Origin: Alphaproteobacteria bacterium
Lineage (GTDB): Bacteria > Pseudomonadota > Alphaproteobacteria > UBA8366 > GCA-2717185
Assembly: GCA_040905865.1 (NCBI GenBank)
Contig: JBBDQU010000040.1
Coordinates: 70,534-114,498 of the forward strand
Reading direction: 5' to 3'
Length of the DNA stretch: 43,965 bases
Below the pieces are notes generated by a model. The model had not been told where the DNA came from, ran no database searches, and saw nothing but the letters and a program-made list of their open reading frames with translations. How positions within the stretch are numbered: position 1 is the stretch's first letter; every line of letters begins with the position of its first letter. Position numbers and translations under genes: made by a program. This document shows, in pieces, positions 4,501 to 42,712 of the stretch.

Positions 4501-6303
4501 ATGACTGATCAAAGCCATATCCGCAATTTTGCGATCATTGCCCATATCGACCATGGCAAATCGACGCTGGCCGACCGGCTGATCGAGAAGGCCGGGTCGC
4601 TGGCGGCGCGCGAGATGAAGGAACAGTTCCTCGATTCGATGGATCTGGAGCGCGAACGCGGCATCACCATCAAGGCGCATGCGGTCCGCCTGGAATACAG
4701 GGCGAAGGACGGCGAGACCTATATCCTCAACCTGATGGACACGCCGGGCCATGTCGATTTCGCCTATGAGGTGAGCCGCAGCCTGGCCGCCTGCGAGGGA
4801 TCGATCCTGCTGGTCGACGCCAGCCAGGGAGTCGAGGCGCAGACGCTGGCGAATGTCTATCTGGCGCTGGACGCCGACCATGAAATCGTCACCGTCCTGA
4901 ACAAGGTCGACCTGCCCTCCGCGGAGCCGGACCGGATCCGCCAGCAGATCGAGGATGTGATCGGGCTGGACGCCAGCGACGCCATTGCCGTTTCCGCCAA
5001 AACGGGGCAGGGCGTGGACGACGTGCTGGAGGCGCTGGTGAAGCATCTGCCGCCGCCCGCCGGCGATCCGAAAGCGCCGCTGCGCGCCTTGCTGGTCGAC
5101 AGCTGGTATGACGCCTATCTCGGCGTCGTGGCGCTGGTTCGCGTCGTCGACGGCACCCTGACCAAGGGCCAGCGTATCCGCATGATGGCCACCGGTACCG
5201 CCCATCCGGTGGAGCGCGTCGGCATCTTCACGCCGAAGGGCGTCATGATCGACGCGCTGGGCCCCGGCGAGATCGGCTTTATCACCGCCTCGATCAAATC
5301 GGTCGCGGATTGCAAGGTCGGCGATACGCTGACCGACGACCGCGTGCCGGCGCTCAAGGTGCTGGCCGGGTTCAAGCCGTCGGTGCCGGTCGTGTTCTGC
5401 GGGCTGTTTCCCGTCGACGCGGCGGATTACGACGATCTGCGCGAGAGCCTGGCGCGGCTCGCGCTGAACGATTCGAGCTTCCATTACGAACCGGAAACCT
5501 CCGCCGCGCTGGGCTTCGGGTTCCGCTGCGGCTGCCTCGGCCTGCTGCATCTGGAAATCGTCCAGGAACGGCTGGAGCGGGAATTCGACCTTGACCTCAT
5601 CACCACCGCCCCCTCCGTCGTCTACCGGATCGCGCTGACCAATGGCGAACAGATCGAACTGCACAACCCGGCGGATTATCCCGAACCGATGCGGATCGAC
5701 ACCATCGCCGAACCCTGGATCAAGGCGACGATCATGGCGCCGGACGAATATCTCGGCGGGATTCTGTCGCTGTGCACGGAACGGCGCGGGGAGCAGGTGG
5801 AACTGACCTATGTCGGCGACCGGGCCATGGTCGTTTACAGGCTACCGCTGAACGAGGTCGTGTTCGATTTCTACGACCGGCTGAAATCGATCAGCCGCGG
5901 CTACGCCAGCTTCGATTATGAAATTTCCGGATACCGCGAAGGCGACCTGGTCAAGGTCGGCATTCTGGTGAACAACGAACCGGTCGATGCGCTGGCGCTG
6001 ATCACCCATAAATCGCAGTCGGAACGGCGCGGCCGGCAGCTCTGCGAACGATTGAAGACTCTGATCCCGCGCCAGTTGTTCAAGATCGCCATCCAGGCCT
6101 CGATCGGCGGCAAGGTGATTGCCCGGGAAACCGTCAGCGCGCTGCGCAAGGACGTGACCGCGAAATGCTATGGCGGCGACATTACCCGCAAGCGCAAGCT
6201 GCTGGAAAAGCAGAAGAAGGGCAAGAAGCGGATGCGCCAGTTCGGCCAGGTGGAAATCCCGCAATCGGCCTTCCTCGAAGCGCTGCGGATGGAGGACCGC
6301 TAG
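4501..6303 (+). CDS. lepA: Elongation factor 4 (LepA), translational GTPase
   Basis: The 600-residue length is typical for LepA. The G-domain motifs are clear: [10 protein letters not shown] (G1), R-G-I-T-I-K-A (G2, with the LepA-style I-T-I-K), D-T-P-G-H-V-D-F (G3), N-K-V-D-L-P (G4) and V-S-A-K-T-G (G5). Domain II and the EF-G-like domains III and V follow, with [13 protein letters not shown] typical of LepA. The LepA-specific C-terminal domain ends with the conserved [17 protein letters not shown]. LepA is a ribosome-associated GTPase that affects translocation and 30S biogenesis. It starts at ATG 4501 and is convergent with the next small gene, one base apart. Confidence 0.98.
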
Positions 6304-6304
6304 A

Positions 6305-6652
6305 TCAGCGCCGCAGGCCCCTGGGTCGCGGCGGCCGCCGGCCGAGACGCAGGAACAGCCCGCCAAGCATCAGGAACAGCACGAACAGGATCGTGAACGA
6401 TTCCCAGGTCGGCCGCAGCAGAAGATACGGGACGATGACCGAGTCCCACAGCGCCGGCAGGTGCAGGTGACGCTGGATGACGACCTGTATCATGTTCAGG
6501 CTCTCGATATCCGCGCTGGCCCAAGCCTGCCCCGCGACCGCCGTGACATCCGTGCCCACCAGCCAGATCGCCACCCCCGACAGCAGGGTAATCAACGACA
6601 GTGCGACGAACAGACGGCCCAGAAAACGCAAAATCGACACGCGGAATACCAT
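6305..6652 (-). CDS. Small membrane protein of unknown function
   Basis: A 115-residue protein with two clear hydrophobic helices: about residues 9-32 (L-G-R-L-F-V-A-L-S-L-I-T-L-L-S-G...) and about 85-103 (F-T-I-L-F-V-L-F-L-M-L-G-G-L-F-L). A soluble loop of some 50 residues lies between them, and a basic, proline-rich tail (R-R-P-P-R-P-R-G-L-R-R) probably stays in the cytoplasm. I do not recognise a named family. It starts at ATG 6652 and ends one base from the lepA stop in convergent orientation. The real-gene call rests on the membrane pattern and on the fit between lepA and the tRNA gene. Confidence 0.7.
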   Translation of the reverse strand: MVFRVSILRFLGRLFVALSLITLLSGVAIWLVGTDVTAVAGQAWASADIESLNMIQVVIQRHLHLPALWDSVIVPYLLLRPTWESFTILFVLFLMLGGLFLRLGRRPPRPRGLRR

Positions 6653-6770
6653 CCTGTTTCAAGCAATGCGGGGCACCCTAACACGCATGGGTTTCGGCGG
6701 GAACCACTGGCTTGCGTACGGGAAAGCAAGAATGTAGTGTCCGCCGCGCCGACCGGGACGGTTCGGCCGT

Positions 6771-6858
6771 GGAAGGGTGGCCGAGTGGCTTAAGGCGCAC
6801 GCTTGGAAAGCGTGTTTAGGGAAACCTAACGCGGGTTCGAATCCCGCTCCTTCCGCCA
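6771..6858 (+). tRNA. tRNA-Ser (anticodon GGA)
   Basis: A full class II cloverleaf can be drawn. Acceptor GGAAGGG pairs with TCCTTCC (one G-U), the D arm includes GCCGAGTGGCTTAAGGC, and the anticodon stem CACGC/GCGTG carries loop TTGGAAA, giving anticodon GGA. The long variable arm TTAGG-gaaa-CCTAA is typical of serine tRNAs. The T arm is GCGGG-TTCGAAT-CCCGC, the discriminator is G and a CCA end is encoded. It reads UCC and UCU codons. Confidence 0.97.
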
Positions 6859-6872
6859 TTCCTCCCGTATCA

Positions 6873-7340
6873 TCAGCCAATTTCCCAGGCGCCGTTGCGG
6901 ATCCGGCAGGCCGTGCTCTGCCGTTCGACGGTTGCGCTTTCGCCCATGGCACTGGCGATGAATTCCCGGCAGTCGCGGCCGTCGGACGCCTGGAAGCTGC
7001 GCAGAATCCGGAAACTGCCGGCCGAACCGGTGTCCTCGTTCTCCCAATAGACCGTCGATCCCTCAGCCGCGCTGTCCAGGCTCAGAAAGGCCGCGCGCTC
7101 CATCTTCTGCTTGTCCATCCGGATGATGTAGTCGGCCGCGTAATAGCCGCCGGCGCCGCCGGCCGCCGCGCCGAGGATGGTCATGACGGTCTGCCCGGTG
7201 CCGCTGCCCAGGATGTTGTAACCGACGAAGGCGCCCAGAAACATGCCGGAAAGCGTCGCGCTGGCCCGCTGGTTGGCGGGGTCGCCGGTCTGACAGGCGG
7301 TGAGGCCGGCAAGCAGGACAAGCACGGCGATACGCTTCAT
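6873..7340 (-). CDS. Glycine-rich outer-membrane lipoprotein (surface-antigen/glycine-zipper type)
   Basis: The 155-residue protein begins M-K-R-I-A-V-L-V-L-L-A-G-L-T-A-C, a type II signal peptide with lipobox L-T-A-C and lipidation at Cys16. A glycine-zipper-like hydrophobic stretch follows (G-M-F-L-G-A-F-V-G-Y-N-I-L-G, G-A-A-A-G-G-A-G-G-Y-Y). The C-terminal half (about 90-155) is a soluble domain with Y-W-E-N-E-D-T-G-S-A-G, D-C-R-E-F and A-C-R-I-R-N-G-A-W-E, resembling the end of 17-kDa surface-antigen lipoproteins. It is likely envelope-associated. I start at ATG 7340 because the signal peptide begins there; the frame is open upstream to 7412 but the added residues would mask the signal. 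Confidence 0.8.
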   Translation of the reverse strand: MKRIAVLVLLAGLTACQTGDPANQRASATLSGMFLGAFVGYNILGSGTGQTVMTILGAAAGGAGGYYAADYIIRMDKQKMERAAFLSLDSAAEGSTVYWENEDTGSAGSFRILRSFQASDGRDCREFIASAMGESATVERQSTACRIRNGAWEIG

Positions 7341-7439
7341 GAAATTACATCCCCATCGGGCCCGTTGCGTTGACGGCGCAGTCGCGCGAGGCTCGCATCG
7401 AAAGGTTAACAAACTATTGAAAGGGTCATGTCGCCGGAC

Positions 7440-7459
7440 ACGCCGGGCGCCGCCGGCGT
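7440..7459 (-). terminator. GC-rich hairpin after the small 7461-7718 gene
   Basis: ACGCCGG (7440-7446) and CCGGCGT (7453-7459) form a 7-bp stem with a 6-nt loop directly after the TAA stop of the minus-strand gene at 7461. No T tract follows on the minus strand, so it may be a weak terminator or an mRNA-protecting hairpin rather than a classical intrinsic terminator. Confidence 0.35.
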
Positions 7460-7460
7460 C

Positions 7461-7718
7461 TTACGTGTTGGCGGAGTTGCCGGCCAGGGGGCTGTATCCG
7501 AGCGCGGTCCGCATTTCCTCGATATCCTTCCGGGATCCCGCGCGCTCCAGAATGACGAGGACGGCGTCATTCATCGGCGATGTCGAGGCGGCGCGCCAGC
7601 CGACCGACAGCAGATCGTTCAGTGCCCGAATGTCAGCCGCTTTTTGGATAATGACCGCATGTTGCACGCGCACGAGTTCGGGTTCGTCGCTTGCGATATC
7701 CTTACCAGACGTAGTCAT
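7461..7718 (-). CDS. Small hypothetical protein
   Basis: An 85-residue soluble protein of alternating helices, with no signal peptide, membrane segment or motif I recognise. Charged and hydrophobic residues are spaced as in a folded domain (I-I-Q-K-A-A-D-I-R-A-L-N-D-L-L, then D-A-V-L-V-I-L-E-R-A-G-S-R-K-D-I-E-E-M), which supports a real gene. It starts at ATG 7718 with an AGGGATA-like ribosome site a little far upstream. It could form a unit with the downstream lipoprotein gene on the same strand, though about 120 bp and a hairpin separate them. Function is unknown. Confidence 0.6.
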   Translation of the reverse strand: MTTSGKDIASDEPELVRVQHAVIIQKAADIRALNDLLSVGWRAASTSPMNDAVLVILERAGSRKDIEEMRTALGYSPLAGNSANT

Positions 7719-8021
7719 GATCGAATATCCCTATCGATGAGACAGGCTACCTAACATTACCGGCGCCGGAAGGCAAGAATCGTCGGCGCCGGATGCGGCA
7801 GCGACATGCCCCGCCCGTAACGATATCTTCCGGCCGCACGCGAATAGTGGGGAACATCGCGTTGACCGGAGTCGTTTCCTGCGCAGGAGAATATTCCGGT
7901 CATGGAACCGTGATGCATATTGGCTGTCTTTTTGCCACAGTTCTGTCATATTCAATGGGTTCCGTGGTCCGGGTACGCCGGAGAAGGCGGGTACCGACCG
8001 AACTGAAAAAGGAGGGCTGCT
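7719..8021. other. Intergenic region upstream of tldD, with a 12-bp palindrome
   Basis: About 300 bp between divergent genes. It holds a perfect 12-bp palindrome, TCCTGCGCAGGA (7877-7888), and moderately AT-rich text near 7920-7960 that may include the tldD promoter. No convincing small gene or structured RNA was seen. Confidence 0.4.
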
Positions 8022-9455
8022 GTGTCCGACCTTGCGACGACAGACAACCTGTTTTTCGAAAAGGCTGGGCTCAACCAGTCGCGAACGCAGAAGATCGTCG
8101 ATGACGCCCTGACCGGGGCCGATGATGGTGAACTCTACCTGGAGTACTGTCAGGCGGAGAGCATTTCCTATGATGACGGCCGCGTCCGCAACGCCAGCTT
8201 CGATACGATGCAGGGGTTTGGCCTGCGCGCCATCGCCGACGAGGCGACGGGATATTCGCATTCGGCGGAACTGAATGAAGACGCCATCAAACGGGCGGGC
8301 GATACGGTTCGCGCGGTGCAGTCGGGCCATGGCGGCACGATGGCCGGCGCGCCCGTTGGCCGAAACCAGAGCCTGTACAGCGACGAAAACCCGCTCGGCC
8401 AGATGGATTTCGCCGCCAAGGTAAAGCTGCTGGCCGATATCGATGAATATGCCAGGTCCCGCGATTCCCGTGTGCGGCAGGTGTCTGCGTCGATATCGGG
8501 CGAATGGCAGGCGGTGCAGATCATCAGGTTGGGCGGTTTCCGCGCTGCCGATATCCGGCCACTGGTCCGGCTCAATGTCTCCGTCATCGTCGGTGAGGGC
8601 GACCGCATGGAAAGCGGCAGCCATGGCGTTGGCGGCCGGGTGTCCTACGACGCCTTCGTCGACCCGGCAGCCTGGCAGGCGCAGACCGACGAGGCGTTGC
8701 GGCAGGCGCTGGTGAACCTGGAATCCGTCGCCGCGCCCGCCGGCGAAATGACCGTCGTGCTCGGCCCCGGCTGGCCCGGTATCCTGCTGCATGAAGCGGT
8801 CGGGCACGGGCTGGAAGGCGATTTCAACCGCAAGAAGACCTCGGCTTTCGCCGGCCTGCTGGGCGAACGCGTCGCGTCCCCCGGCGTGACGGTGGTCGAC
8901 GACGGCACGCTCAACGACCGCCGCGGTTCGCTGACGATCGATGACGAGGGAACCGCGACCTCCCGCACGGTCCTGATCGAAGACGGCATTCTCGTCGGCT
9001 ATATGCAGGACCGGCTGAACGCCCGCCTGATGGGCGCCGCACCGACCGGCAACGGGCGGCGGCAATCCTTTGCCCATGCGCCGATGCCGCGGATGACCAA
9101 TACCTACATGCCCAACGGTAACGCCGATCCGGAGGAGATCCTGCGCTCGGTCAAGAACGGGCTGTACGCCGTGTCCTTCGGCGGCGGCCAGGTCGATATC
9201 ACCAGCGGCAAGTTCGTCTTTTCCTGCACCGAGGCCTACAAGATTGAGAATGGAAAAATTGGCGCGCCGGTAAAAGGGGCGACGCTGATCGGCAACGGCC
9301 CGGACGTGTTGACCCGTGTTTCCATGATAGGCAACGACACGAAGCTCGATCCCGGCATCGGCACCTGCGGCAAGGACGGTCAGGGCGTGCCGGTCGGCGT
9401 CGGCCAGCCAACCCTGCGGATTGACGGGCTGACAGTCGGCGGCACAGCGGCGTGA
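8022..9455 (+). CDS. tldD: Metalloprotease TldD
   Basis: The 477-residue protein is of typical TldD length. The zinc-protease signature H-E-A-V-G-H-G-L-E-G-D is present, with H257, E258 and H262; a further conserved Cys lies in F-V-F-S-C-T-E-A-Y-K-I-E-N-G, the family's third zinc ligand. The N-terminal half has the usual R-x-x-G-x-x-x-R-A pattern (M-Q-G-F-G-L-R-A-I). TldD works with TldE (PmbA) as a heterodimeric protease that degrades unfolded peptides and matures some peptides such as microcins and CcdA. No tldE is visible in this window. The start is GTG 8022, with a GGAGG ribosome site 6 bp upstream. Two exported-protein genes follow closely, probably as one transcription unit. Confidence 0.97.
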   Translation: MSDLATTDNLFFEKAGLNQSRTQKIVDDALTGADDGELYLEYCQAESISYDDGRVRNASFDTMQGFGLRAIADEATGYSHSAELNEDAIKRAGDTVRAVQSGHGGTMAGAPVGRNQSLYSDENPLGQMDFAAKVKLLADIDEYARSRDSRVRQVSASISGEWQAVQIIRLGGFRAADIRPLVRLNVSVIVGEGDRMESGSHGVGGRVSYDAFVDPAAWQAQTDEALRQALVNLESVAAPAGEMTVVLGPGWPGILLHEAVGHGLEGDFNRKKTSAFAGLLGERVASPGVTVVDDGTLNDRRGSLTIDDEGTATSRTVLIEDGILVGYMQDRLNARLMGAAPTGNGRRQSFAHAPMPRMTNTYMPNGNADPEEILRSVKNGLYAVSFGGGQVDITSGKFVFSCTEAYKIENGKIGAPVKGATLIGNGPDVLTRVSMIGNDTKLDPGIGTCGKDGQGVPVGVGQPTLRIDGLTVGGTAA

Positions 9456-9462
9456 CAATCAC

Positions 9463-9888
9463 ATGAACCGGTATGCGACGATATTCTGCACGACCCTGCT
9501 GGCACTGAGTGCCTGTGATGGCGCCGAACCGGTCGCCGAGGCCGCCGAGAAGGCACAGGTGCGCCTGGACCTGATCGAATTTACCTATGAATTCGCCGCG
9601 GGGCGGCACCGCTACAACCATCGCCGGCTGTTTACGGAGACCGCCGGCACCGGCGTCACCGTCACGCGCGGCAAGGTGTGCGTCCTGAATGGCGAAGAGT
9701 GCGCCGATGCGCTTGTCAATTACCGGATCGAAGCATTGCAGACCCTGGAACAGAAGGGCCACTACGTTGCGACCCCGGTGGGAAAAGACCGGATTACGCT
9801 GCAATACTGGGCCGAGGACGACGCCGGCAACAGGTTCGAATTCACGAAAATTGTGACGACCGACGGCCGGATTGCCGTTTCGGAATAA
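9463..9888 (+). CDS. Small lipoprotein of unknown function
   Basis: The 141-residue protein starts M-N-R-Y-A-T-I-F-C-T-T-L-L-A-L-S-A-C, a lipoprotein signal with lipobox L-S-A-C and lipidation at Cys18. The mature part (about 19-141) looks like a small beta-rich domain with two cysteines (K-V-C-V-L-N-G-E-E-C) that could form a disulfide in the periplasm. I do not recognise the family. It begins 7 bp after tldD and ends 5 bp before the next exported protein, so the three are very likely co-transcribed. The link to TldD may be functional or only positional. Confidence 0.75.
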   Translation: MNRYATIFCTTLLALSACDGAEPVAEAAEKAQVRLDLIEFTYEFAAGRHRYNHRRLFTETAGTGVTVTRGKVCVLNGEECADALVNYRIEALQTLEQKGHYVATPVGKDRITLQYWAEDDAGNRFEFTKIVTTDGRIAVSE

Positions 9889-9893
9889 CAACA

Positions 9894-10562
9894 ATGGCGC
9901 GACGGTGTTTGTCCGTAGCCCTGATTGCCGCGGCGCTGATCGCGGTATCGTGCCGCATAGCGCCGGCCTTGGCGTCCGATATTACCGGCGTGCCCGATGG
10001 CGGGATGTTGAATTTCGCCATCCTGCGGAACGGCGAGGCAATCGGCTCGCATGTCATCCGCTTCGAAAGGAACGGGAGCGACCTGGAGGTGCGCATCGAG
10101 GCAAAGGTCGATTACCGCTTCGGCTTCATACCGCTTTACCGGTTCGAGCATCAGGCGCTGGAAGTCTGGCGCGACGGCAGTCTACAGCGGATGGCAGCCA
10201 CGACGAACGATAACGGTGCGCCATACCAGATTGCCCTGCATCGCGAAGAGGGCGGCATGGTGCTGGCGATCAATGGCGTCGAAACGGCGGAGGACCCGGA
10301 TCTCCAGCCGGCGAGCCTGTGGAGTGTCGCGATCGTGACGCAACGCCGCATTCTGGATCCGGCCGATGGCGAATTGATGTCGGTCGAAATCGCCGACGCC
10401 GGCATGGAATCAATCCGGGTCGCGGGGCGCGATATCCAGGCCCGGCACTATGTGATGACCGGCGATTTCGAACGCGACCTCTGGTACGACAGCCGGGGCG
10501 TGCTGATGCAGGTTCGCTTCCACGGCGATGACGGATCGGAAATCCGCTACGATCTGCGTTAG
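9894..10562 (+). CDS. Exported DUF6134-like protein
   Basis: A 222-residue protein with an N-terminal signal peptide (A-R-R-C-L-S-V-A-L-I-A-A-A-L-I-A-V-S-C..., likely cut near A-L-A-S). The mature domain has the pattern L-N-F-A-I-L-R-N-G-E-A-I-G-S-H-V-I-R-F and Y-R-F-E-H-Q-A-L-E-V-W-R-D-G-S-L, which I associate with the DUF6134 family: periplasmic beta-rich proteins of unknown role that resemble a half beta-barrel or lipocalin-like sheet. The family name is from memory. I start at ATG 9894, 5 bp after the lipoprotein gene; the frame is open further upstream but would remove the signal peptide. It is convergent with the TRAP permease gene, 4 bp away. Confidence 0.75.
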   Translation: MARRCLSVALIAAALIAVSCRIAPALASDITGVPDGGMLNFAILRNGEAIGSHVIRFERNGSDLEVRIEAKVDYRFGFIPLYRFEHQALEVWRDGSLQRMAATTNDNGAPYQIALHREEGGMVLAINGVETAEDPDLQPASLWSVAIVTQRRILDPADGELMSVEIADAGMESIRVAGRDIQARHYVMTGDFERDLWYDSRGVLMQVRFHGDDGSEIRYDLR

Positions 10563-10566
10563 ATGG

Positions 10567-12456
10567 TTAGTCCCGAACGGTCACCGGTGCGGCGGTTTCC
10601 GTTTCCGTCGCCGAGCGCGGCCAGATGAACAGCTGCAATGCGATGATGCCGGTGATGATGCAGCCGCCGACGATATCCGTTGTCAGGCCGGGCTTGATCA
10701 GCGTAAAGGCCGCCGCCGCCAGCAGCAGGCGCTCGATTACATTGGCGCGGCGCAGGAAGTATCCGTGCAAGCCGGCGGCAAGGCAGCAAACGCCGATAAC
10801 CGAGGTCACGCAGGAAATTGCGACCGTGACGGCGTCGCCGATCATCAGCAGCGACGGTCCGTAGACAAACATGAACGGTATTATGTAGCCGGTCGCGGCC
10901 AGTTTCATCGCAGCGAGGCCACCATCCCAGATCCCCGCGCCGGACAGGCCGTTCGCCGCGTAAAGCGTGATCGCCACCGGCGGCGTAATGGCCGAGAGGA
11001 TGGCGAAATAGAACACGAACATATGCGCGGCTTCAAGCGGGACCCCCAGCTTGATCAGCGCCGGCACCAGCAACGCCACCTGTACGATATAGGCGGGCGT
11101 CGTCGGCAGGCCCATGCCCAGGATGATGCCGGCGATCGCGGTCAGGATCAGCGCCAGCAACAGGGTCTCCTGCGACAGTTGAATGACGAAGGAGGTGAAC
11201 TCGATGCCGATGCCGCTGAGGGAAATAATGCCGATGACGATACCGGAGCAGGCGCAGGCGACGGCGACCTGCAGCGAGTTGCGAATGCCTTCGATAAGGG
11301 CGTTGATGACGCCCATGAAGCTGATCTCGGAACGTGTCGTCTTGCGCATCAGGGCAACCGGAACGACGGAAAACAAACCGCATGTCGCCGCATAGGGCGC
11401 GCTGTATCCGGCGACCAGAACGCCAATGATGATTGCCAGGGGGAGAAACTGATGGCCACGGTCGCGCAGGACCTTGCCCATTGCGGGAAGGTCGGCGCGC
11501 GGCAGCCCCTTCAGGCCGACGCGTTTCGCTTCGAAATGGACCGCGATAAAAACCGCAAGGAAATAGAGCAGCGCCGGCAGGATGGCGAGCGAGATAACCG
11601 TCAGGTAACTCACGGCCATGAATTCGGCCATGACGAAGGCGGCGGCGCCCATAATCGGCGGCATGATCTGCCCGCCGGTCGATGCAACCGCTTCGACCGC
11701 GCCGGCAAAGGCGGGCCGGTATCCGATCCGTTTCATCAGCGGAATCGTGAATGTACCCGTGGTCATGACATTGGCGGTGGAACTGCCGGAAATCGTGCCG
11801 AACATGGCGCTGGTCATGCAGGCGACCTTGGCGGGTCCGCCGGCGGTGTGCCCGGCAAGTGCCAGCGCGAAATCCATGAACAGTTTGCCGGTGCCGGTTT
11901 TTTCAACCAGGGCGCCGAATACGATAAACAGGACGAGATATGTGGCGGACACATTCAGCGGGATGCCGAAAATGCCTTCCGTCGTCAGGTACATCTGATC
12001 GATGACTTCGCCGGGTCGCAGGCCGGCGACAAAAAAGCCGTAGCCGAGAAATATCAGGGACGTGATCGGCAGCGCCAGACCAATGGTGCGGCGGGTCGCC
12101 TCCAGGACAATGACAATGATCAAGACACCGAAGGTGAAGTCTGTCGGCCGCAATTCATCGACATAGGCGAAGCGGTCCAGAATGTAATCGTGCTCCACAA
12201 AAAGGTAGGAGATGACCGCGACGGATCCGGCGAGAAGTGCCGTATCCCACAGGGCGCCGAAGATTGCCTTGCCGCGCGTGGCGTCGGCCAGCGTCGGAAA
12301 CCAGAGATAGATCAGGACCAGCGCAAACAGCAGATGCGTGCCGCGAAAATGAAAGACCTCCGGCGCACCGGTGAAGACGACCCAGAGATGGAATCCCAAC
12401 ATCGCAAGCGCGATGGCGGATGAAACGGCGATACCGATCTTGTTGCTGGCCAGCAT
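10567..12456 (-). CDS. TRAP transporter fused permease (4TM/12TM, TAXI type)
   Basis: The 629-residue protein has many membrane helices. The N-terminal part (about 1-110) corresponds to the small DctQ-like subunit and the rest to the large DctM-like subunit, fused as usual for TAXI-TRAP systems. DctM hallmarks include G-P-A-K-V-A-C-M-T-S-A-M-F-G-T-I-S-G-S-S-T-A-N-V with T-G-T-F-T-I-P-L-M-K, and G-G-Q-I-M-P-P-I-M-G-A-A-A-F. A second repeat near I-L-G-M-G-L-P-T-T-P-A-Y-I contains the mirrored motif. It should drive Na+-coupled uptake of an organic anion captured by the adjacent binding protein. Start is ATG 12456. The gene lies downstream of the binding-protein gene, separated by a strong hairpin. 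Confidence 0.95.
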   Translation of the reverse strand: MLASNKIGIAVSSAIALAMLGFHLWVVFTGAPEVFHFRGTHLLFALVLIYLWFPTLADATRGKAIFGALWDTALLAGSVAVISYLFVEHDYILDRFAYVDELRPTDFTFGVLIIVIVLEATRRTIGLALPITSLIFLGYGFFVAGLRPGEVIDQMYLTTEGIFGIPLNVSATYLVLFIVFGALVEKTGTGKLFMDFALALAGHTAGGPAKVACMTSAMFGTISGSSTANVMTTGTFTIPLMKRIGYRPAFAGAVEAVASTGGQIMPPIMGAAAFVMAEFMAVSYLTVISLAILPALLYFLAVFIAVHFEAKRVGLKGLPRADLPAMGKVLRDRGHQFLPLAIIIGVLVAGYSAPYAATCGLFSVVPVALMRKTTRSEISFMGVINALIEGIRNSLQVAVACACSGIVIGIISLSGIGIEFTSFVIQLSQETLLLALILTAIAGIILGMGLPTTPAYIVQVALLVPALIKLGVPLEAAHMFVFYFAILSAITPPVAITLYAANGLSGAGIWDGGLAAMKLAATGYIIPFMFVYGPSLLMIGDAVTVAISCVTSVIGVCCLAAGLHGYFLRRANVIERLLLAAAAFTLIKPGLTTDIVGGCIITGIIALQLFIWPRSATETETAAPVTVRD

Positions 12457-33739: not shown

Positions 33740-35362
33740 ATGGCTGCGAGCGAAGACGAATATACCTATATCATCGCCGGTGCGGGGTCGGCGGGATGCG
33801 TGCTGGCGAACCGGTTGTCGGCGGACCCGAAGAACCGGGTGTTGCTGCTGGAAGCGGGCACCAGGGACAGCTATCCGTGGATTCACATTCCGGTCGGCTA
33901 TTTCAAGACCGCGATGAACCCGAAAACGGACTGGTGCTTCGAAACCGAAATCGACCCGGGGCTGAACGGCCGATCCATTCCCTATCCGCGCGGCAAGGTG
34001 CTGGGGGGCTCCAGTTCCATCAATGGGCTGGTCTATATCCGCGGACAGAGCCGCGATTACGACCAGTGGCGGCAGCTTGGCAATGCCGGCTGGTCCTGGG
34101 AGGATGTTCTGCCCTATTTCAGGAAGTCGGAAGACCAGCAGCGCGGGGAAAGCGAAACCCACGGTGTCGGGGGACCGATTGCGGTGTCGGATATCTCCTT
34201 CACGCGCGGCTTTTCCAGCGCCTTCATCGCCGCGGCGGAAGAGGTCGGCATTCGGCGGACCGATGATTTCAATTCGGGCGACCAGGAGGGCGTGGGCTTT
34301 TATCAGTTGACGACCCGCAACGGACGCCGCTGCAGCGCCGCCGTCGGTTACCTGAATCCCGTGAAGCACCGGAGCAACTTGACCATCACGACGGAAGCAC
34401 TGGTCCACCGGGTGATCTTCGACGGCAAACGCGCCACCGGCGTCGAGTTTTCGGTTGGCGGGCAGAAGCGCGTCGCGCGCGTCACGCAGGATGGCGGCGA
34501 GGTGCTGCTGTCCTGCGGCGCCGTTGCCTCGCCCAAGGTATTGCAGCTTTCCGGCGTCGGGCCGGCGCCAGTGCTGCGGGAATTCGGCATCGACATCGTG
34601 CACGAACTGCCGGGAGTCGGCATGAACCTGCAGGATCACCTTGCGGCGCGCTCCGTTTACAAGACCAACGAACCGTCGCTCAACAACGAGGTCAACAGCA
34701 TTCTCGGCAAGATGCGCATCGGGCTGGAATACGCGCTGTTCCGCAAGGGGCCAATGACCATCGCGGCCGGCCATGTGGGGATGTTCGCCAGGACGCGGCC
34801 GGATCTCGAAACGCCGGATGTGCAGTTCCACGTCATCCCGCTCAGCATTACCGGCGTCGGCAAGGCATTGCACAAGTTTGCCGCGTTTACCGCATCCGTT
34901 TGCCAGTTGCGCCCCGAATCGCGCGGCTATGTGGTGATACGGTCGACGGACCCGTCCGTCGATCCGGCGATCCATCCGAACTACCTGTCGACGGTGACCG
35001 ACCAGCAGACAATCGTGGACGGGCTCAAGCTGTCGCGGAAGATCATGTCGACGCCGACCATGAAGAAGCTGGTGATCGAGGAATTCGCCCCCGGTCCGGC
35101 CGCGCAGACCGATGAACAGTTGCTGCAGTTCGCGCGCGATACGGGGTTGACCGTCTATCACCCGGTCAGCACCTGCAAGATGGGCCCGGATTCCATGGCC
35201 GTGGTCGATGAACGGCTGCGCGTACACGGCATGCGGGGGCTGCGGGTTGTCGATGCCTCGATCATGCCGACGCTGAATTCCGGCAATACGAACGCGCCGA
35301 CGATCATGATCGCCGAAAAAGCCGCCGACATGATCCTGGAGGATGCCCGTAGCGCGGCATAG
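33740..35362 (+). CDS. GMC-family FAD oxidoreductase (choline-dehydrogenase-like)
   Basis: The 540-residue protein opens with the FAD dinucleotide motif [17 protein letters not shown] and E-A-G-T near residue 45. GMC signature 1 is present ([18 protein letters not shown]), and signature 2 follows at [16 protein letters not shown]. The catalytic end shows [10 protein letters not shown] with the active His, and S-G-N-T-N-A-P with the second active residue as Asn. Such enzymes oxidise primary or secondary alcohols to aldehydes or ketones. An excellent GGGAGGAACTGA site precedes ATG 33740. It is divergent from the RND pump and is followed by the selenoprotein gene after 45 bp, so they probably share a transcript. 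Confidence 0.96.
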
Positions 35363-35390: not shown

Positions 35391-35407
35391 ACAGGGAGAT
35401 TGGGACA

Positions 35408-37138
35408 ATGGACGCACTGGAAGTATTCGATCCCAGCGGCGCGACGGAGGTCAGCGTGTTGCACGCGCCCCGGCTGCAGTCGCTGAATGGCAAGACCGTG
35501 GCGTTGCTCAGCGACGATATGTGGCAGGCGCACCGCATGCTGCCGATGATCCGTGAGAAGCTGCAGGCGCTTTACCCGGACGCGACCTTCATACCCGAAA
35601 CCGAATTCCCGATGGGAACGCGGCAGATGGATACCGAGGAAACCGTGGACATGCTGATCGAACGGGGCGTCGAAGCGGTCATTGTCGGAAACGCCTCCTG
35701 AGGCGCCTGCGCGACAGCATGCGGCCGTGTCGCCGCTCGTATCGAAAGCAGGGGTATCCCGACCGTTATTCTGACCCGCGAGGATTTCGTGGGCGTGGTG
35801 CGCAATTCCGTGGCCGGACTAGGCTTCGACCAGGATGCGTCCATGGTGATCTTTCCGATTTCGCCCTTCCTCGTCGACAGCGATATTTCGCCGGTCGAAC
35901 GCGACGTCCATAAATTCGCCGAGGGGCTGACCGAGTGGAAGCCCGCGAGTACCGAAACCGGTATCCAGTACCCGCCCAGGGTGCGGATCGAAGCCAATGG
36001 CTACGAAGCCGCCTATGACAAGATGAACCGGCAGTTCATCACCAGCACCTGGGGCGACGGCCTGCCCCTGAACCCGCCGACTGAAGAGCGGGTGTCCTGG
36101 ATCCTGCAGGGGACCGACCGGCCACGGGATTCTCTGATCGGCAAGGTGATGCCGCGCGGCGGCATCGCCACGGTGGAAACCCTCGCGGTGTCGCTGGCCA
36201 TGTCCGGCGGACGGCCGGAATACCTGCCGGTCATGATCGCGGCGATCGAATGCATCCTCGATCCGGAAATGGAGCACGACAAGTTCCAGGCGACATCCGG
36301 CAGCACCTACCCGGTGGTGATCGTCAACGGGCCGATCGGCAAGGATATCCGGCTCAATTCCGGCTTTGGCCTGCTGGGTCCCGACCCGCAGCATCCGGCT
36401 GGCGTCGCCATCGGCCGCGCCATCCGGCTGATCCAGCAGAATGTCGGCGGGGCGCTGCCCGGGGTCGGCACCATGTCGATCTATGGCGCGATGCGCACGA
36501 CCAATGTGGTCATCGCCGAGGACGAGGAAGGCCTGCCCGAAGGCTGGGGGCCGGTTGGCGCCGATTTCGGCGGTGTCGGGCCTGGCAGGAACGGCGTTAC
36601 GGTGCTCGTATCGACGGGGGCTTCCAATATCGTGCGCCGCGGCGTCGGCAAGGAAACGCTGGAAGACGAGGCGCTGCAGAGCCTGTACCGGGTGGCAGCC
36701 TATCTGCGCAGCCCGTCGGCGCATTACGTCTGGGGCCATGCCAAGGGCACGCCGGGCGCGCTTTTGATGCCGCGGGTCGTGGCGGGGCAATTGGCGTCGC
36801 TCGGCTGGACCAAGCAGAAGATCAAGCAGTTCCTGTGGGATAACTCGAAAATCCCGCATGAGGAGGTCGTCCGCACCGGCCTGCTGCAATGGATCGAAAC
36901 CGGGGTCGATCCGGCAACGGTGGCATCCTCGAACGATCCGATGTGGCCGATCTGCCGCGATCCGTCGCAGATCGTCCTGGCGGTCGCGGGCGGGGCGCAT
37001 CCGACGCATAATTTCTGGATGCAGGGCGCGACACCGAAAGTCGCCACCGCGGCGATTGATGTGCCGAAGGACTGGTACGGGCTGCTGGCGCAGGCGGACG
37101 ACGATCTCGGCCCAAGCGGCGATATGTGCCTGATCTGA
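35408..37138 (+). CDS. UGSC-family selenoprotein with in-frame TGA (Sec98) and long C-terminal domain
   Basis: One frame stays open for 576 residues except for a single TGA at 35699-35701 (residue 98). Residues 1-97 ([23 protein letters not shown], then [10 protein letters not shown]) and 99-150 ([27 protein letters not shown]) match the UGSC family, in which U-G-S-C is the redox motif. Here it reads U98-G-A-C101. The C-terminal part (about 190-576), with [25 protein letters not shown] and A-E-D-E-E-G-L-P, is not a domain I can name. The start is ATG 35408 with GGGAGAT before it. If TGA were a stop, a 97-residue stub would end just before its active site. A nonsense mutation is the main alternative. 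The enzyme's substrate is unknown. Confidence 0.82.
35702..35740 (+). promoter_or_regulatory. Candidate bacterial SECIS hairpin downstream of the in-frame TGA
   Basis: GCGACA (35711-35716) pairs with TGTCGC (35728-35733). Two more G-C pairs form beyond a bulged C, giving an 11-nt loop that starts with G, 15 nt after the TGA. A competing hairpin pairs GCGGC (35721-35725) with GCCGC (35732-35736) around loop CGTGTC. Either would place a short stem with a G near the loop start where SelB-binding elements are expected. The fold is by eye only. Confidence 0.5.
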
Positions 37139-41630: not shown

Positions 41631-42422
41631 TTGCGAGCTGAGAATGAGGAATTCCGTGACCGGCCGGTGGCCGTGTTTGGCGCCGCGTCGGGAATCGGAC
41701 GGGCAACCGCGCTGGCCTTCGCGGCGCGGGGCGCCCGTGTTGCGGCGCTTGACGTCAATGCAACGCTTCTTGAAGGGTTAGCCGATGAAATGCGCGCCGC
41801 GGGTGCGGCGATGGCGCTGACCGCCGCCGCCGATGTGCGCGACAGCGCATCCGTGGCACCCGTCCTGCAAATGGCGGCGGCCGAACTGGGCGGTCTGGAT
41901 CATCTGGCATTTACCGCCGGCATCCTGCGGGTCGGACAGCTGACCGATATGTCGGAAAGCGATTTCGACGATGTCTTCGCCGTCAACATGCGCGGTTTCT
42001 GGATCGCCATGCGGGCGGCGCTGCCCCTGCTGCAGGGCGGGCCGGCGCGGCGGCGCGCCGTTACCGCCATCTCCTCCGCCGCCGCGATCCGGCCGAAGGC
42101 GTCCAGCGGCGCCTATGCCGCCTCGAAGGCCGCGCTGTCGCATCTGGTGCGGGTGTTTTCAGTCGAACTGGCGGCAAGCGGGATCACCGTCAACGCCATC
42201 GCCCCGGCTACGGTGGATACGCCGATGGTCGCCCCCTACATGGGCCGGACCGCCGGCAATCACGGCTACCGCCTGACCGGTACTTCGCCGATGGGCCGCA
42301 TCGCGCAGCCGGCCGATATCGCCGATGCCTGCCTGTTCCTGAGTTCCGCCGCGTCGTCCTACATCACCGGCATCACCATGCCGGTCGATGGCGGCTCGAC
42401 CGCCGCATTGCCCGCCAGCTGA
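41631..42422 (+). CDS. Short-chain dehydrogenase/reductase (SDR)
   Basis: A 263-residue protein with the classical SDR plan. The cofactor motif V-F-G-A-A-S-G-I-G-R-A is at residues 15-25, D41-V follows strand 2 and suggests NAD over NADP, and the catalytic Y162-A-A-S-K166 with upstream serine S148/S149 is present. The usual N-A-G reads T-A-G (T95). The start is unclear: TTG 41631 (GGGGAG 8 bp upstream) gives the normal SDR length, while the frame extends to a TTG at 41544 with no family match. It likely oxidises or reduces an alcohol or ketone in the same pathway as its neighbours. Its stop overlaps the start of the flavoprotein remnant (TGATG). Confidence 0.92.
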   Translation: MRAENEEFRDRPVAVFGAASGIGRATALAFAARGARVAALDVNATLLEGLADEMRAAGAAMALTAAADVRDSASVAPVLQMAAAELGGLDHLAFTAGILRVGQLTDMSESDFDDVFAVNMRGFWIAMRAALPLLQGGPARRRAVTAISSAAAIRPKASSGAYAASKAALSHLVRVFSVELAASGITVNAIAPATVDTPMVAPYMGRTAGNHGYRLTGTSPMGRIAQPADIADACLFLSSAASSYITGITMPVDGGSTAALPAS

Positions 42423-42712
42423 TGCCCATGCCGGACAACCGGGATATCGAAGCCGATATCGTCGTCGTCGGCTTCGGCGCGGCGGGCGTGGCCGCATCGG
42501 TCACCGCCTGCGAACCGGGCGCGGATGTCGTAATCCTGGAAAAGGCGCCGGAAGGGCGCGAAGGCGGCACGCCGATCCCCCGGCTGTACAGCGCGGGCGA
42601 GTTGGGTTCGATATACAGCTACCTGTATCAGGGCACGGGCAATATCGGCGAATGCCTCGCCTTCGGCCGCATCGCCGCACGCGAAGCGGTGGCGGAAACG
42701 GTTTGGGGCTGA
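42422..42712 (+). CDS. Internally deleted FAD_binding_2 flavoprotein remnant (96 residues)
   Basis: Residues 10-48 (E-A-D-I-V-V-V-G-F-G-A-A-G-V-A-A-S, V-V-I-L-E-K-A-P-E-G-R-E-G) are the FAD-binding N-terminus of a fumarate-reductase/ketosteroid-dehydrogenase-like flavoprotein. From residue 50 (T-P-I-P-R-L-Y-S-A-G-E-L-G-S-I, G-N-I-G-E-C-L-A-F-G-R-I-A-A-R) the sequence is the family's C-terminal FAD-contacting end. In full enzymes of about 450-550 residues these parts are hundreds of residues apart. The join is near 42566-42570 and the frame is kept. The start overlaps the SDR stop. It may encode a small FAD-contacting peptide, or be a decaying gene or assembly artefact. No enzyme activity is expected. 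Confidence 0.65.
   Translation: MPMPDNRDIEADIVVVGFGAAGVAASVTACEPGADVVILEKAPEGREGGTPIPRLYSAGELGSIYSYLYQGTGNIGECLAFGRIAAREAVAETVWG

Follow-up and report, generated by a model that had tools for sequence, protein, structure and literature searches.

A UGSC-domain fusion gene with an in-frame TGA in an alphaproteobacterium: probable selenocysteine insertion and an apparent distant relation to GrdB/PrdB

The locus examined here raises the question of whether a TGA codon inside an otherwise open frame ends a gene or is read as selenocysteine (Sec) and, if it is read, what kind of protein results. The window, i.e., the whole stretch of 43,965 nucleotides of alphaproteobacterial DNA that was analysed, contains a plus-strand frame at positions 35408-37138 that translates to 576 residues. 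Its sole internal TGA is codon 98 (35699-35701) and its closing stop is also TGA (37136-37138), bearing out the original prediction of a single TGA in an open 576-residue frame. The motif at this codon reads U-G-A-C with a further Cys at residue 105, again as had been stated. Without recoding, the frame yields a stub ending at 35701, of 97 aa from ATG 35408 or of 110 aa from an upstream TTG in the ORF list, and a 449-aa ORF from GTG 35789. This is the split into a 97-residue stub and a 449-residue ORF that conventional annotation had been expected to produce; the ORF list agrees, and mis-annotation of this kind shows in two out of five plasmid records that were opened. The features discussed below are as follows.

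33740-35362 (+): GMC oxidoreductase gene (choline-dehydrogenase-like), adjoining the fusion gene upstream and possibly co-transcribed with it (ORF list, profile match)
35393-35398 (+): Shine-Dalgarno-like AGGGAG, purine-rich, before ATG 35408 (sequence)
35408-37138 (+): UGSC/large-domain fusion selenoprotein gene, 576 aa, with TGA codon 98 probably read as Sec and a TGA stop
35408-35950 (+): UGSC domain, residues 1-181, with PF24696 at residues 5-143, predicted to be Rossmann-like
35696-35743 (+): peak synonymous constraint of the gene (codons 97-109), candidate bacterial SECIS after the TGA (comparative; the hairpin in the window alone is not distinctive)
35699-35701 (+): putative Sec codon 98, the in-frame TGA (translation; TGA in 77 and Cys in 3 of 80 relatives)
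35699-35722 (+): active-site motif U-G-A-C-A-T-A-C with U98, C101 and C105 (translation, alignments of relatives)
35993-37135 (+): large C-terminal domain, residues 196-576, unassigned in Pfam and NCBIfam and without a clear PDB match
37127-37129 (+): Cys574, a possible shuttle thiol in the low-confidence C-terminal tail (68 of 80 relatives have a Cys among their last six residues)

The in-frame TGA among relatives and the Sec machinery

Within the same order, 20 of 43 genomes were found to carry the fusion, giving 25 matches at E <= 1e-60 including the window's own. All 25 contain exactly one TGA in an otherwise open frame, the other 24 being 47-98% identical to the window (100% for its own), and the TGA falls in one alignment column in the 24 that were aligned (L056, which holds an N, was left out). 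In a scan of GTDB genomes, from which the best 80 of 103 relatives were kept, the motif codon was TGA in 77 and Cys in 3, and the frame was open beyond this codon in all 80; this set and the order-level set share many organisms, and their counts are not additive. The Cys-type loci belong to two near-identical Rhizobiales isolates (L105 and L107) and a Variovorax MAG (L112), and the Sec/Cys state changed twice on the tree of the 80 relatives and the window. The comparison that had been proposed for the residue-98 column thus recovered both Sec-type and Cys-type homologues. Homologues that end at the TGA, which would speak for termination, were absent from the 80; this holds only in part, however, as the scan used peptide patterns downstream of the TGA, which such homologues would escape. 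In an even sample of the class, a strict search (E <= 1e-100) found the fusion in 2 of 289 genomes including the window's own, the other copy also having one TGA, and the fusion is rare in this sample at that threshold. Against nine relatives picked from the 80, dN was far lower than dS both before and after the TGA, indicating that purifying selection acts on both sides.

The original prediction had also described the motif as a Ser-to-Ala variant. Ala is indeed present, but it does not distinguish this gene: among 81 rows the third motif residue is A in 28, S in 47, N in 5 and R in 1, and it changed at least seven times on the tree. The idea of a novel variant was rejected, since the residue varies this widely and L039, from the same genus, has UGSC. 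U/C98, G99 and C101 are invariant in 57 alignment rows (the window, 54 of the 80 loci, and L057 and L059). C105 is present in 78 of 80 relatives and falls just short of strict conservation, which leaves U/C-G-x-C as the core motif. Two observations were made in passing on the same tree and loci. Five genomes (G032, G033, G040, G041 and G042; L052-L061) carry a tandem pair of different fusion selenoprotein genes with the motifs UGNC and UGRC. MAG records titled Bordetella parapertussis or Chitinophaga pinensis (L083, L092, L101, L114, L121, L123, L124, L134 and L138-L140) group with betaproteobacterial environmental MAGs, and these titles look wrong.

The host genome (4.37 Mb in 85 contigs, listed as 100% complete) was found to contain the sel genes for which a search had been suggested. 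Profile scores were 563 bits for selA, 461 bits for selB and 300 bits for selD, selA lies 33 nt away from selB on contig C32, and a tRNA-Sec with anticodon TCA was identified by an Rfam match and by ARAGORN. A second tRNA-Sec candidate over the Rfam cut-off, on contig C54, was discarded as it is a tRNA-Ser by ARAGORN. The tRNA-Sec gene lies on C25 (about 7380-7471), apart from selAB, and about 1.05 kb upstream of one of the split UGSC pairs described below (8518-10228), with a divergent LysR regulator gene in between. For 45 of the 80 loci the relative's genome was searched for selA; most of these genomes are MAGs of unstated completeness. The gene was over cut-off in 38 of 42 Sec-type genomes, the exceptions being L077, L126 (a short fragment at a contig start), L127 and L133, and in one of three Cys-type genomes (present in L112 and not found in L105 and L107).

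These data bear on two readings in which Sec is not incorporated. Plain read-through or a changed code could place another residue, e.g., Trp or Cys, at the TGA, a possibility that arises from the indirect nature of the Sec assignment itself. However, TGA also ends the same gene, which speaks against a simple code change; some relatives have Cys at this codon, two of them without selA, and the genome has a tRNA-Sec, and we regard this reading as highly improbable. The remaining reading, a recent nonsense mutation or base-call error in a pseudogene or in two genes, takes its appeal from the interrupted frame and from annotation that splits such genes, but with TGA or Cys at the codon in every one of the 80 relatives, purifying selection downstream of the TGA and a full Sec machinery it is refuted in practice by the comparative data, its probability being negligible, and a base-call error in particular is very unlikely because 77 other relatives carry the TGA. 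The earlier claim of a real selenoprotein in a host with Sec machinery is supported by the PF24696 match (see below), the Sec/Cys column and the sel genes. The gene is almost certainly a real, conserved selenoprotein gene, for which we infer Sec insertion in vivo.

Synonymous constraint and a candidate SECIS

In 69 sequences, obtained by thinning the 77 TGA-bearing ones without N at 90% nucleotide identity, the excess of synonymous codon identity over expectation peaked at codons 97-109, and the top eight 12-codon constraint windows all lay within codons 93-113 (385 informative columns). A peak at and after the TGA is what an embedded SECIS would cause. A candidate 7-bp stem with a CGGC loop starts 13 nt after the TGA; across 48 sequences 86.0% of cells are paired, and the loop and spacing of this stem fit the bSECIS model as given in the available part of a recent review (PMC13188914). 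Five to seven of the seven pairs are kept in all 77 Sec genes and four to five in the three Cys genes. Three stem pairs show double changes; in the divergent L133, four of the seven pairs differ, three of them on both sides, with all seven pairs kept. In a control of 500 shuffles, the observed value was reached by 33 for the covariation score, 158 for cells paired and 5 for both-side changes, and covariation of the stem is modest in this control. RNAalifold favoured another stem, without compensatory change.

The stability of the hairpin was not distinctive. In the window's own sequence many other parts of the gene fold at least as stably (z -0.71; 55 of 200 comparison windows), and the comparative 18-nt hairpin, at -2.7 kcal/mol, is equalled by 725 of 1710 18-mers of the gene; the published bSECIS model, in the text consulted, is more stable at -7.5 kcal/mol (PMC13188914). 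Proof of a SECIS from the window alone was accordingly rejected. For the 42 nt after the TGA, folded in isolation, the number of windows out of 200 that were at least as stable was 19, 119, 42 and 67 in the four split UGSC genes and 62, 19 and 7 in three GRDB-like genes, and in most of these seven other selenoprotein-type genes of the genome the segment is not unusually stable. The comparative data suggest that a SECIS is likely embedded after the TGA, with the stem above as its candidate.

Predicted fold and distant relatives

The combination of a UGSC selenoprotein domain with an uncharacterised conserved domain has a precedent in a UGSC/Unknown_1 fusion reported in 2008 from GOS metagenome data, and in the portion of that paper available the 255 UGSC proteins of the set are counted among the commoner aquatic-metagenome selenoproteins (PMC2398784). 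The present protein probably has the same architecture, as judged by description; a Trx-like fold is suggested there, in that portion, whereas our model is Rossmann-like. A 2026 review, as far as its accessible text goes, places UGSC among families of largely uncharacterised function (PMC13188914).

The N-terminal domain matched Pfam PF24696 at 75.9 bits (cut-off 25) over residues 5-143, so that the suggested search against UGSC-family models returned a match over a curated cut-off. With the NCBIfam equivalog NF041046 (UGSC_fam) it scored 44.5 bits over model positions 2-113 of 147, and the cut-off of 125 was not reached. The gene thus resembles the PF24696/NF041046 family in its N-terminal domain and in Sec at the first motif position, but differs in lying far under the NF041046 cut-off, in its fusion to a large domain and in Ala at the Ser position. 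The 380-residue large domain matched no Pfam or NCBIfam family.

AlphaFold2 modelled the whole protein, with Sec98 entered as Cys, at a pLDDT of 90.8 and a pTM of 0.91. In the model, strands and helices alternate, and residue 98 lies between strand 90-96 and helix 99-113. A Foldseek search of the PDB with the whole protein gave no match at E <= 0.001 (best 1.2e-3). With VIA-align 2, residues 24-181 returned a designed protein first and then Rossmann-like, PurE, receiver and B12-binding structures, with Z of 8.5-11.0 over the 50 rows listed, middling values that the tool's own note calls common. No thioredoxin was among those 50 rows, although a family missing from the list may still match. The UGSC domain is predicted from these models to have a Rossmann-like fold and does not look thioredoxin-like in them. 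The large domain modelled alone had a pLDDT of 88.1; against the PDB, Foldseek gave nothing at E <= 0.001, VIA-align Z was at most 5.2 in all rows, and the sequence search gave a chance-level match (E 0.44). An identity as a fumarase or amide hydrolase was set aside for this domain, the Foldseek matches starting from E 1.1e-3 with a TM of about 0.2. Separately, the UGSC-domain profile matched the complex II flavoprotein 4ysx over residues 58-117 at E 7.2e-6, with the E. coli homologue 1nek at E 1.6; this match was treated as spurious, as a matter of judgement.

Searches with other members pointed toward the selenoprotein B components of glycine and proline reductases. The UGSC protein on contig C37 matched sarcosine, glycine and betaine reductase component B models at E 9.3e-5 to 4.6e-3 over the Sec region, in a list that also held an unrelated SDR model at E 3.8e-4. 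The fused L085 matched PrdB and other models at E 7.1e-4 to 4.4e-2 over the same region, the weak NCBIfam matches of the relatives being to PrdB, GrdF and GrdB, scoring 19.1 bits with TIGR04483 (cut-off 300). Such single-protein matches appear to be near noise; the C25 UGSC protein had no Grd/Prd match at E <= 1, and the window protein had no NCBIfam Grd/Prd match at E <= 0.001 and no PF07355 match up to E 10. The host genome, in addition, carries three PF07355 (GRDB) genes over the family cut-off (on C10, C5 and C36; L142, L143 and L144), and in each of them an in-frame TGA falls within a U-P-x-C motif. All three proteins matched PrdB TIGR04483 (best E 1.4e-35; the one listed score was 103.3 bits vs a cut-off of 300). 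The MFE fold of these genes places a hairpin about 10 nt after the TGA. When a profile of 16 UGSC domains was aligned with the three PF07355 proteins by hhalign, a single comparison, the probability was 91.4 with E 8.9e-7 over 55 columns, Sec falling on Sec.

From these profile data, the UGSC Sec domain is probably a distant relative of the GrdB/PrdB Sec domain and not a member of that family. The likeness to GrdB/PrdB (PF07355, TIGR04483) consists of the kinship around Sec and the UxxC motif, GrdB itself having UxxCxxC according to the part of the review consulted, in which thioredoxin is also stated to take part in glycine reductase (PMC13188914). In contrast to GrdB/PrdB, this protein falls under every curated cut-off and is fused to another partner domain; the large domain did not match GrdE/PrdA models, and no GrdE/PrdA-like or pyruvoyl-type partner was recognised. 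A link between UGSC and GrdB/PrdB was not found in those parts of the literature that were available to us. In a study of a Synergistota monofluoroacetate operon, GrdB-related proteins are linked to reductive cleavage of a non-amino-acid substrate (PMC10838667). That system serves anaerobic dehalorespiration and is likened to ours by description and not by sequence. What looks new here is the predicted Rossmann-like UGSC domain, the apparent distant relation to GrdB/PrdB and the four split sets in the genome.

Split copies, gene neighbours and a proposed function

UGSC genes occur at five places in the host genome, one of them fused and four split, and every copy contains one TGA. On contigs C25, C37 and C85 the large-domain gene is directly upstream of the UGSC gene; on C8 the two are about 3.6 kb apart (5866-11547) with a TctA transporter gene and an unassigned 381-aa ORF between them, and substrate uptake may be linked to this pair through the transporter. 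The motif of the split copies is UGSC three times and UGAC once. Two of the four were scored with NF041046, one passing at 128.7 bits and the other, at 122.3, just short of 125. Their large domains align with that of the window at 26-30% identity, and the NCBIfam run for these split large-domain proteins covered that of C37. An N-terminal CxxC domain with a weak, below-cut-off resemblance to thioredoxin-like families is present in three of the four split partners (C8, C37 and C85).

Related genes also occur on plasmids, of which five of 24 records were opened. The IncP plasmid p2-T1 of Acidovorax sp. T1 has the fused Sec form, with an IS1071-family transposase gene on the same stretch; its record lists only the stub ending at the TGA and no gene beyond, and the PLSDB table is incomplete. 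Plasmid pFER4 of Paracoccus ferrooxidans has the split Sec form about 3.3 kb from selB, and the annotation breaks it into two fragments around the TGA. Split Cys forms were observed in two haloarchaea and in Variovorax SRS16, where trxB lies 1.9 kb upstream of the pair in the same cluster, with a TctC receptor gene and an SDR gene between. Such genes can be split or lost in annotation, and their active site is then missing from databases because annotation splits or drops them, as in p2-T1 and pFER4.

The neighbourhood was defined as ORFs within 6 kb of the fusion at 81 loci (the 80 and the window; 723 ORFs), many loci ending early at contig ends. Recurring clusters, named from one representative each and given as raw counts, were the TctC receptor (36 loci), CoA-transferase III (13), SBP_bac_11 (13), SDR (12), GMC (9), TauD (9), acyl-CoA dehydrogenase (8) and MmgE/PrpD (5). 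In 9 of the 81 loci a GMC gene of this cluster lies no more than 400 nt from the fusion gene. TctC receptors are abundant in Betaproteobacteria in general, and some recurring neighbours, named by eye, are non-catabolic (LepA-like, RND and DNA polymerase IV-like ORFs). The neighbouring genes point to a part in catabolism and not to one in stress defence.

Considering these data, we propose the following scheme. SelB and tRNA-Sec would recode the TGA at 35699 as Sec98, aided by an RNA element in the coding sequence just downstream. In the predicted fold of the UGSC domain, Sec98 is presented where a helix begins, behind a strand of a Rossmann-like sheet, and the large domain probably forms the substrate site. 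The Sec98 selenolate would attack a small organic substrate held by the large domain, reducing it or cleaving it reductively, and would leave the enzyme as a Sec98-Cys101 selenenylsulfide. Thioredoxin-type thiols would then re-reduce this bond, with Cys574 as a possible shuttle; a supply of such thiols as the electron donor is suggested because of the CxxC domain in three of the four split partners and trxB near the Variovorax SRS16 pair. A catabolic role is proposed because the neighbours include GMC, CoA-transferase III, TctC, TauD, acyl-CoA dehydrogenase and MmgE/PrpD. The reductase mechanism of the fusion protein may hold or fail with about equal chance, while the explanation as a whole, Sec98 recoding together with a reductase of a small organic substrate in catabolism, is one that we somewhat favour.

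If Sec is incorporated, the protein could instead be a thiol or peroxide redox enzyme, i.e., a thioredoxin- or peroxiredoxin-like antioxidant. The UxxC motif would fit such an enzyme, and in the passages available to us UGSC is stated to have, or likely to have, a Trx-like fold (PMC2398784, PMC13188914). However, strands and helices alternate in the AlphaFold2 model, the 50 VIA-align rows listed are without a thioredoxin (an absence that is not exclusive), several recurring neighbours are catabolic and the sequence kinship points to GrdB/PrdB, and we consider an antioxidant role unlikely. Less probable still is a non-catalytic Sec domain that binds selenium or a metal through U/C-G-x-C ligands while the large domain carries out an unrelated reaction, e.g., one that is hydratase- or amide-hydrolase-like. 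In keeping with that idea, class I fumarases and cyclic amide hydrolases are the best Foldseek matches of the large domain, at non-significant scores, but these superpose at an rmsd of about 13-19 A with VIA-align Z at most 5.2, and Sec serving purely as a metal ligand would be unusual in an arrangement of this kind.

The favoured catabolic reductase would be a two-part enzyme and may perform a reduction like that of glycine reductase in bacteria that break down organic compounds, and the GrdB/PrdB link, the steady partner domain and the catabolic neighbours provide a testable enzyme hypothesis for UGSC. More tentatively, and with some doubt, UGSC plus the large domain might represent a widespread class of selenolate-dependent reductases in its own right, which would be the counterpart to GrdB/PrdB in catabolism by free-living bacteria of marine, freshwater and soil habitats and in which one type of thioredoxin-fed Sec domain would serve several substrate domains; this last point is suggested by the one fused and four split copies in the genome. 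Elsewhere in the window, a 96-aa ORF at 42422-42712 (+) matches only the start of FAD_binding_2, while its end resembles a flavoprotein end, as if the middle were missing through an internal deletion, a pseudogene or an assembly fault.
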